14,294 bases of DNA, taken from NCBI GenBank assembly GCA_001797815.1, contig MGQK01000060.1:10696-24989 (forward strand), written 5' to 3'. Numbering within the stretch: position 1 is the first letter of the stretch; the number at the start of each line of letters is the position of its first letter. A program made the position numbers and the translations under genes. Source of the DNA: Deltaproteobacteria bacterium RBG_13_61_14. Lineage in GTDB: Bacteria > RBG-13-61-14. Shown one piece after another: positions 2,968 through 9,348 of the stretch. Below the pieces are notes generated by a model. That model saw only the letters and a program-made list of their open reading frames with translations. It made no database searches and had not been told where the DNA came from.

Positions 2968-3642
2968 TCAGACCACCCGCAAGCCGGCCAGCTTGACCGC
3001 ACCCCGATGGTAGCCGGTGGGGAAGAGCCTTTCCAGTTCCTCCAATTCGAGCTGATTGGCCTCACAGGTCTCATAGACGGAGGGCACCACCCCGTTCTTC
3101 TGGAAGCGCTCGCGCAGGAAATTGAGAATTTGCCAGTGGCGGCTGGTCAGTCCTTGTTTCAGACCCATCTCTTCGGCCCGGTGCAAGGCAAAATATGGAT
3201 CCCATTCCGCCGCATCCTTCAGAAACCCGCGGACATCCACCCGGTAGACCTTTTGCTCCACCGCCTCCTCGGCCGCGCCGGCCGCGTCAATCCCGGCACC
3301 CAGGCCGCCTTCCCCGAAGAAATTGACCTGATGGTCGAGGTAGGTGATCCCGGCCAGCTTGCAGGCGCCGCGCAAGTAGCCGGTGGGAAAGAGCTGCTGG
3401 AGGTCGCGGATGAAAAGGCCGTTGGCGCGGCAGGTCTCGTAAACCAGCGGACACCTCCCGGACTTGCGGAACGAGTCCCGGATGTAGTGGATGACATTCC
3501 AATGCTTCGGGGTCAACCCCCCCCGGATATTGACCTCCGGCGCCATGCCCTCGGCAAAGGCCCTATCCCATTTCTGGTAATCCGCCAAAAAACCATTGGC
3601 ATCCACCAGGTAGCCCTTGCCCTGGAACATCACCTTTTTCAT
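2968..3642 (-). CDS. Tandem two-domain DsrC/TusE-like protein lacking the redox arms
   Basis: A 224-residue protein made of two copies of the DsrC/TusE/DsvC fold. Copy 1 (about 3-105) has VDANGFLADYQKW, LTPKHWNVIHYIRD and LFPTGYLRGACKLAG. Copy 2 (about 131-224) has VDVRGFLKDAAEW, LTSRHWQILNFLRE and LFPTGYHRGAVKLAG. They are joined by a Gly/Ala-rich linker (about 108-128). Canonical DsrC carries sulfur on a C-terminal cysteine and uses a second cysteine in the ACKIAG position. Here copy 1 keeps only the latter (C94), copy 2 has Val at that place (V216), and neither has the terminal arm. Each copy instead has a cysteine in VYETC (C71, C193). Trisulfide chemistry as in dissimilatory sulfite reduction is therefore unlikely; a regulatory or binding role is inference. 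AAGGA lies about 8 bases before the ATG. It converges on the treT-like gene and is divergent from the hydrolase. Confidence 0.85.
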   Translation of the reverse strand: MKKVMFQGKGYLVDANGFLADYQKWDRAFAEGMAPEVNIRGGLTPKHWNVIHYIRDSFRKSGRCPLVYETCRANGLFIRDLQQLFPTGYLRGACKLAGITYLDHQVNFFGEGGLGAGIDAAGAAEEAVEQKVYRVDVRGFLKDAAEWDPYFALHRAEEMGLKQGLTSRHWQILNFLRERFQKNGVVPSVYETCEANQLELEELERLFPTGYHRGAVKLAGLRVV

Positions 3643-3729
3643 GGGAAGATCCTTTCTCCTACGCCTAATAAAAAATGAAATCCCCTGACCCTACGGGAAA
3701 AACCCTCGCTCGCCTTTTAAAAATACCAG

Positions 3730-3754
3730 GATACCCTTTTCTCTCTTTGGTATC
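3730..3754. repeat. Short inverted repeat GATACC-N13-GGTATC
   Basis: Perfect 6-bp arms separated by a 13-base pyrimidine-rich spacer, with a further TACC just upstream. It lies between the divergent DsrC-like gene and the hydrolase gene, so it could be a regulator binding site or a weak hairpin. No regulator gene is nearby, and arms this short can occur by chance. Confidence 0.3.
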
Positions 3755-3900
3755 AATATTCATGCCATCCTCTTCCCGCCTGCTTCAAGCCCTGAAAAAG
3801 GGGTTTTGCAACGGCTATCCCTGCCCCAAAGTCAAAAAGGTTTACATTCCCATGTCGGTTTTCTTTTCACTTTCCACCCGAGCCTCATCCCGAATTTTTC

Positions 3901-3928
3901 TTGACAAAATTCGGAATTCTGCTTTGAT
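3901..3928 (+). promoter_or_regulatory. Candidate sigma-70 promoter of the S15-type hydrolase
   Basis: A perfect -35 hexamer TTGACA (3901-3906) is followed after 16 bases by TTTGAT (3923-3928), four of six matches to the -10 consensus. Transcription would begin near 3935 and leave a leader of about 70 bases before the ATG at 4005. Confidence 0.45.
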
Positions 3929-3949
3929 CTAGAAGGCAATGCCCTTCGC

Positions 3950-8214: not shown

Positions 8215-9348
8215 CTAAAGCTTCTCTCCGCACTTCTTGATCCGCTCCCAGTCCAGCTCCACGCCCAGGCCCGGTTTCTGGGGCACCTGGACGCAGCCGT
8301 CCTTGCCCACCTGGAACGGCTCGGCCAGCATGAAGTCGCGGGCCTCGGGCACCCAGCCGGGGGGTTCGTAAGGGAACTCACAATACGAGTTGTTGGGGCA
8401 GGAGGCCATGAGCTGGAGGTTGGCGGCCAGGCCCAGGCCGTTGGTCCAGGTGTGGGGGCTGAACTCCAGGTTGGCGGCCTCGGCCATGCCCGCCACTTTC
8501 TTGCCGTTGAGGATGCCGGTGGAGATGGTGACGTCGGGCTGGATCACGTCCAGGCAGCCCTTTTCGATCAGGTCGCGGAACTCGAACAGGTCCACGTTGA
8601 ACTCGCCGCCGGCAATGGGCACGCTCGTGGCCTGGCGCAGCGCGGCATAGCCCGCGTAATCCTGCTTGTATAAAGGTTCCTCCAACCAGCGCAGCTTCAG
8701 CTCCTCGCAGGCCCGGGCAAAAGTCATGGCCCGCTTCAGGCTCCAGCGCGGGTAGGGCGCGAACCCGTGGATCGGCCAGCCCTGGTTCGCGTCCACCATG
8801 ATCTCCATGCTCTCGCCCACCGCCTTGCGCACCGCTTCCACCTGGGCCAGGTCTTCTTTGAGCGAGAACGACTTGACCCGCAGCTTCACCGCCTGGAAGC
8901 CCATCTCCTTGAGCTTGAGCACTTCCTCCACCCGCTGCTCCGGCGGGTGCACCTCGCCGGTGCTGGCATAGGCCAAAATTTTCTCCGGCCCGCCGCCCAA
9001 GAGCTTGTAGATCGGCTGGTTGGTGGCCTTGCCGATCAGGTCCCAGAACGCCACCTCGATGAACCAGGCCTTGTATCCGAGGAAAAGCGCGCTCCGGAGC
9101 AGCCGCACAAAGTCCTCCACCTGGAACGGGTCGCGGTTGAGAGCGAACGGCCGGAGCAAGCTGATCAAGCCCTTGGGCTCGTCCATGAAAGCCACCCCTG
9201 CGGCATAGCCCTCGAGGCCCTGGTCGGTGCGGAGCGCCGTGATCAGGCAGGAGTTGCGGCTCTGCGGATAACCCGGTATCCATGAGGGCATAAAATTGGC
9301 CGGCAAAGGATAATGACACAGGTAAGCATCAACGCCCGTGATCTTCAT
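8215..9348 (-). CDS. Mandelate racemase/muconate lactonizing enzyme family protein (MR subgroup)
   Basis: A 377-residue enolase-superfamily enzyme with a capping domain (about 1-125) and a barrel. Metal ligands are D186 in VDANQGW, the glutamate in WLEEPL (about 223) and E249 in AGGEF. Bases are K155-x-R157 in AVKLRV on strand 2 and the D272/H299 dyad (IQPD, FSPHTW), with E324 in CEFPYEP matching the carboxylate after strand 8. The Asp-His dyad places it in the mandelate racemase subgroup rather than the lactonizing or Ala-Glu epimerase subgroups, which use a Lys there. Members usually abstract the alpha-proton of acid sugars to dehydrate or epimerise them. Arg in the second place of the KxK motif sets it apart from mandelate racemase itself. 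The ATG is preceded by GGAAAGGAG. The following SDR is probably in the same transcript. Confidence 0.88.
   Translation of the reverse strand: MKITGVDAYLCHYPLPANFMPSWIPGYPQSRNSCLITALRTDQGLEGYAAGVAFMDEPKGLISLLRPFALNRDPFQVEDFVRLLRSALFLGYKAWFIEVAFWDLIGKATNQPIYKLLGGGPEKILAYASTGEVHPPEQRVEEVLKLKEMGFQAVKLRVKSFSLKEDLAQVEAVRKAVGESMEIMVDANQGWPIHGFAPYPRWSLKRAMTFARACEELKLRWLEEPLYKQDYAGYAALRQATSVPIAGGEFNVDLFEFRDLIEKGCLDVIQPDVTISTGILNGKKVAGMAEAANLEFSPHTWTNGLGLAANLQLMASCPNNSYCEFPYEPPGWVPEARDFMLAEPFQVGKDGCVQVPQKPGLGVELDWERIKKCGEKL

Follow-up and report, generated by a model that had tools for sequence, protein, structure and literature searches.

The function of DsrC at DsrAB and DsrK depends on a mobile C-terminal arm, and the canonical protein (DsvC; TIGR03342/PF04358) carries two cysteines, CysB and the CysA of the arm, in the pattern GACK-AGLPKPTGCV. 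TusE has the same fold and belongs to the same family, with the terminal CysA only. In paralogues of the RspA type both conserved cysteines are absent, and a regulatory role for such cysteine-poor DsrC homologues was reportedly proposed in a 2014 review by Venceslau and co-workers. Apart from a few exceptions, the penultimate cysteine is confined to organisms that have DsrAB (Stockdreher et al., PMC3397948).

The protein analysed here (P0002) is an armless double DsrC, in which two DsrC domains lie in one chain. Each half resembles canonical DsrC in fold (Z up to 17.9) at about 30% identity; CysB is retained in the first domain, and the position of Cys71, ancestral in DsrC, is retained in both. 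It differs from canonical DsrC in having two domains per chain, no C-terminal CysA arm, an extra cysteine (C64), Val in place of CysB in domain 2, and GY in place of GP in both domains. The cysteine pattern is the reverse of that of TusE, CysB being present without CysA; the TusE terminal cysteine is missing, and the TusE equivalog model scored P0002 at 63.5, against a cut-off of 191. Like the RspA-type paralogues, the protein has lost the carrier chemistry and is presumed to be regulatory, but it is double-domained and its CysB (C94) is invariant in 81 of 81 homologues. By fold and profile it is a member of the DsrC family that lies outside both DsrC proper and TusE.

The tandem DsrC gene and its product

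The window, the whole 14,294-nucleotide stretch of DNA that was analysed, contains the tandem gene on the minus strand at 2968..3642. The gene was identified by its open reading frame, its profile matches and an alignment of 71 members; it starts with ATG, has no internal stops and encodes 224 amino acids. It is monocistronic. A TreT-type glycosyltransferase gene faces it in convergent orientation, and on its other side a CocE/NonD hydrolase gene runs divergently on the plus strand, beyond an intergenic region at 3643..3938. One weak sigma-70-like site was found upstream of the tandem gene on the minus strand (3756-3728), at a level near chance (0.5 in shuffled sequences).

Pfam DsrC (PF04358) matched P0002 twice, at residues 6-100 and approximately 131-222, with 134 bits in total, and the halves searched separately scored 71.1 and 66.4 bits (cut-off 24.9). 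NCBIfam TIGR03342 also matched twice, domain 2 alone scoring 52.1, just below the cut-off of 53.5. Domain 1 (residues 1-103; 3334..3642, minus strand) contains C64, C71 and C94, the last equivalent to CysB. It is joined by a linker (residues 104-128; 3259..3333, minus strand) to domain 2 (residues 129-224; 2971..3258, minus strand), which contains C193, the fourth and last cysteine of the protein, and has Val216 at the CysB place. Both halves share the pattern LFPTGYxRGAxKLAG, as LFPTGYLRGACKLAG at residues 84-98 and LFPTGYHRGAVKLAG at residues 206-220, and the PKPTGCV arm is absent from each. An earlier note, made from the sequence of the window, had described two fused, armless DsrC domains with C94 in the first repeat and Val216 in the second, and all of this was borne out; the paired LFPTGY motifs that it reported are both present, each starting one residue before the position given there.

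The AlphaFold2 model, built from 71 sequences, gave both domains a pLDDT of about 95, with residues 104-124 of the linker disordered (pLDDT <50) and the relative placement of the two domains poorly defined (pTM 0.51). Both domains are predicted to take the DsrC fold: domain 1 matched DsrC 3or1_C (Z 17.9, rmsd 2.4, 103 residues) and domain 2 matched 7syb (Z 14.8, rmsd 1.7, 92 residues). The next structural matches were helix-turn-helix domains of the TetR and sigma-4 types, aligned with residues 45-98 and 157-214 at Z 4-6, which is within the range of unrelated folds. The LexA_DNA_bind profile was barely above its cut-off in P0002 and matched 13 of 71 family members. A single-domain TusE-like protein matched it as well (E 8e-4), so the helix-turn-helix belongs to the DsrC fold as a whole, and the LexA match was dropped as proof of DNA binding. 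Although the helices of residues 45-98 and 157-214 are arranged as in TetR, LexA and sigma-4 domains, this arrangement is common to the whole DsrC family, and in tandem domain 2 the counterpart of the recognition helix is acidic, with an average net charge of -2.5; the median pI is 6.1. No operator-like motif or dyad rose above shuffled sequences in the upstream regions of 69 tandem genes.

Cysteines and the conserved face

Besides the invariant C94, the 81 aligned tandem homologues conserve C193 (79/81), C71 (76/81) and C64 (68/81), the last of which was missing from the cysteines listed in the earlier note. Exactly four cysteines are present in 44 of the 81, and a terminal cysteine, which would mark a carrier arm, is absent from all of them. 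The change from GP to GY before the CysB helix occurs in both domains (79/80 each), and the CysB place of domain 2 is Val in 65/80.

The position equivalent to C71 is Cys in 21 of 24 canonical single-domain DsrC proteins that have CysB; C71 and C193 are therefore ancestral, inherited from DsrC, and the suggestion that they could form a new redox or metal pair was rejected as regards its being new. The C64 position is Ala in 24/24 of the same canonical proteins, and C64, found in domain 1 only, is the innovation of the tandem family. Because the arm is absent, sulfur delivery as in DsrC or TusE (trisulfide formation or TusE-type relay) is, on established knowledge, excluded for the tandem group, and a non-catalytic, binding or regulatory derivative, as had been suggested before, is likely.

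The best-conserved stretch of the protein is the CysB face, with mean identities of 78-80% in the two domains, compared with 52% and 55% for the whole domains; the recognition helices, at 52-55%, also fall below it. This distribution of conservation suits a protein partner better than operon-specific reading of DNA.

Distribution and origin

About 80 full-length tandem relatives were found in other genomes, which excludes a frameshift joining two separate genes. The first were found in Zixibacteria (G387) and in a deltaproteobacterial metagenome-assembled genome (G388). The tandem gene is present in 34 of 132 genomes of the phylum of the former, where a genome may hold up to six copies at different loci, and in 7 of 395 genomes of the phylum of the latter, the second large phylum; two further small phyla also have the tandem form. 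Of 386 bacterial genomes sampled from many families, DsrC-family genes were found in 51 and the tandem form in only five. All 71 homologues examined matched PF04358/TIGR03342, and there was no model specific to the tandem form among the Pfam and NCBIfam matches. A literature search, which had most subscription journals outside its reach, found no description of a tandem DsrC, and the family is apparently undescribed so far.

In a maximum-likelihood tree the 160 tandem domains were separated, with a support of 100/99, from the 38 DsrC/TusE proteins of one domain. First domains formed one clade (98/82) and second domains one or two groups, in a tree built on 105 columns only, whose inner forks are soft. 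With every tandem domain in a single clade that excludes DsrC and TusE, one ancient duplication followed by diversification is likely. The copies nearest to P0002 lie beside an Mvh-type hydrogenase (L022, 57% identity) and beside an [FeFe] hydrogenase (L192, 55-56%).

Three unusual relatives were also encountered. A 363-residue relative in a Zixibacteria-phylum genome (L180:7395-8486, minus strand) is long enough for three DsrC domains. At L024:8055-8811 a tandem gene lies in two frames, split at a run of eight G (8482-8489), where slippage, a frameshift or an error of sequencing may be the cause; [FeFe] hydrogenase genes flank it on one side and hydrogenase-accessory genes on the other. In genome G061, a divergent DsrC-like protein of one domain (L197 (L039)), in which the usual CysB/CysA pattern is missing, matched the second-domain profile weakly.

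Genomic context

The host draft genome (4.74 Mb, 132 contigs) carries dsrA (582 bits), dsrB and a separate canonical DsrC (P0005) with two cysteines and an intact PKPTGCV arm. There are also dsrMKJOP-like genes on contig C113, named from their translations without profile matches, and a cobyrinate-diamide-synthase-like gene of the DsrN kind, likewise named from its translation. The host thus possesses the classical Dsr system and, besides it, the tandem protein as a further paralogue. No DsrC-family match was found in the other two of the three species examined in the host phylum.

The locus itself had been described as outside classical sulfur metabolism. This stands for the window, which holds no dsr gene; it fails for the genome, as just described, and for the Zixibacteria relatives, whose tandem genes co-occur with dsrA/B. 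In the Zixibacteria phylum, dsrA/B are present in 29 of 34 genomes with the tandem gene and 23 of 98 without it (raw counts from related genomes). The remaining tandem-bearing genomes tested have dsrA, except those of family f26 (G026, G060, G061). In each of these genomes two contigs (L204-L209) break off in the opening part of a dsrA, so a tandem gene without dsrAB was not accepted for this family; the fragments suggest a duplicated dsrAB lost in assembly, and dsrA was probably lost in this way.

An association that the earlier note did not contain was found in the neighbourhoods of the relatives. Hydrogenase or hyp genes occur in 22 of 70 tandem neighbourhoods and in 1 of 40 evenly spaced control windows, most of which were taken from the same Zixibacteria genomes (p 1.7e-4); the other 48 of the 70 have neither. 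As the genomes that supplied the neighbourhoods are related, the loci lack independence, and all p values are inflated and indicative only. Apart from response regulators, the recurrent neighbours in the 70 are almost all hydrogenase-related: [NiFe] small and large subunits, HycI, HydG-like NAD-binding and HydB-like Fe-S subunits, a cNMP-binding protein, HypF, HypD, HypB, HypE and HypA. Response regulators or kinases are not enriched (19/70 versus 12/40 controls), and a two-component link was dropped.

At 16 loci a hydrogenase-related gene of the same strand (HypB, HypE, HycI or another) immediately adjoins the tandem gene, with gaps mostly below 75 nt and often 11-50 nt to HypB or HycI. Three kinds of hydrogenase are found nearby: [NiFe] enzymes with HydB/HydG-type subunits, HdrA-MvhDGA and [FeFe] HydAB. 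On one Zixibacteria chromosome HdrA-MvhDGA and a hydrogenase protease are followed by three consecutive tandem genes, and in f26 one tandem gene has [FeFe] hydrogenase genes on one side and further hydrogenase-accessory genes on the other. DsrK-like CCG and/or DsrM-like genes adjoin the tandem gene at six loci; at L129, L177 and L178 the order is single-domain dsrC-like, DsrM-like, DsrK-like, tandem DsrC (with one extra gene between at L177), and the tandem protein of this unit has a CysB-like cysteine in both domains. A class-V aminotransferase (SufS/IscS-like) fused to an AIRS (SelD-like) domain is encoded near tandem genes at L133, L138, L146 and L150.

The window copy does not share this association: no hydrogenase gene adjoins it, and neither sulfur nor hydrogenase genes were found among the open reading frames scanned in the wider contig flanks. 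The host genome yielded one [NiFe] hydrogenase large subunit; it belongs to a HoxEFUYH-like cluster and lies on C114, not on the contig of the tandem gene. The tandem family occurs mainly in sulfite/sulfate-reducing bacteria, often inside hydrogenase gene clusters, and may link sulfur and hydrogen metabolism.

Possible functions of the tandem protein

Our tentative preference is for a non-carrier, regulatory DsrC derivative of sulfur/hydrogen energy metabolism that tunes the expression of nearby operons. An ancestral DsrC gene would have been duplicated in frame and the C-terminal cysteine arm lost from both copies, with the CysB thiol (C94) kept in domain 1 and C71 and the new C64 close by in sequence. 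C94 could then report on the DsrC/sulfide pool of the cell, sensing its thiol, persulfide or redox state, and a pseudo-dimer of two helix-turn-helix domains could tune the expression of a nearby hydrogenase or dsr-type operon. The DNA-binding output is the least secure step. This reading is favoured by the copy number, the diverse operon contexts, the solitary copies and the helix-turn-helix fold, and as many as six copies per genome at different loci are as expected for operon-local regulators.

We place the regulator slightly ahead of a protein adaptor or decoy, itself quite possible, in which the DsrC docking face (LFPTGYxRGA-C/V-KxAG) without its arm would bind enzymes that handle DsrC. 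The putative partners are DsrK/HdrD-type CCG proteins, HdrA-Mvh and perhaps hydrogenases, and the outcome would be post-translational control of how electrons pass between H2 and the DsrC pool. DsrC of D. vulgaris, which works with DsrMK and Flx-Hdr, provides a precedent (PMC10504309, PMC6470260). The adaptor is favoured because the CysB face is the best-conserved part even among paralogues beside different operons, the domain 2 recognition helix is acidic, operator-like motifs are lacking, and the neighbours include HdrA-MvhDGA and DsrK-like CCG and DsrM-like genes, at some loci in the order dsrC-DsrM-DsrK-tandem. The group adjoining DsrMK also retains a second CysB-like cysteine, in domain 2. 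However, many tandem copies are solitary, and others neighbour Group 3b-type [NiFe] or [FeFe] HydAB hydrogenases, neither of which is, to our knowledge, a DsrC partner.

A new kind of thiol-disulfide carrier is unlikely. C94 and either C64 or C71 would cycle between dithiol and disulfide (or persulfide) without an arm, and hydrogenase/Hdr complexes would in this way exchange electrons or sulfane sulfur with the sulfur pathway. The conservation of C64, C71, C94 and C193, the many proteins with exactly four cysteines, and the restriction of C64 to domain 1 of the tandem family would fit such a role, but the mobile arm on which DsrC action is based is gone, and C71, being ancestral, is not a specific adaptation.

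The immediate proximity of HypB, HypE or HycI at many loci (gaps of 11-73 nt) raises the further idea of an accessory, or chaperone, for hydrogenase maturation or expression, encoded with hypABDEF/hycI or beside [FeFe] genes. We consider this improbable: the same family occurs beside DsrMK and in solitary copies, two genomes with tandem genes (G008 and G062) have no PF00374 hydrogenase match, and we know of no step shared by [NiFe] and [FeFe] hydrogenase maturation. An error of assembly or annotation, or a pseudogene fusion in decay, might be suspected in a draft genome of so many contigs, but has a negligible chance, given that homologues in several phyla are intact and conserve their motifs and cysteines strongly.

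A broader proposal, which we regard as less likely than not, is that of a dedicated sulfur-hydrogen coupling protein. With its single CysB thiol the armless double DsrC would read the state of the DsrC/sulfide pool; either docking or DNA binding would then let it set the activity or expression of DsrMK-like complexes and of hydrogenases of the unrelated [NiFe] and [FeFe] kinds. Dissimilatory sulfur metabolism has its hub in DsrC. A conserved, multi-copy, non-carrier DsrC derivative that lies in operons for hydrogenases and DsrMK-like proteins is a concrete and testable candidate for matching sulfur reduction with the oxidation or evolution of H2 in uncultured lineages.
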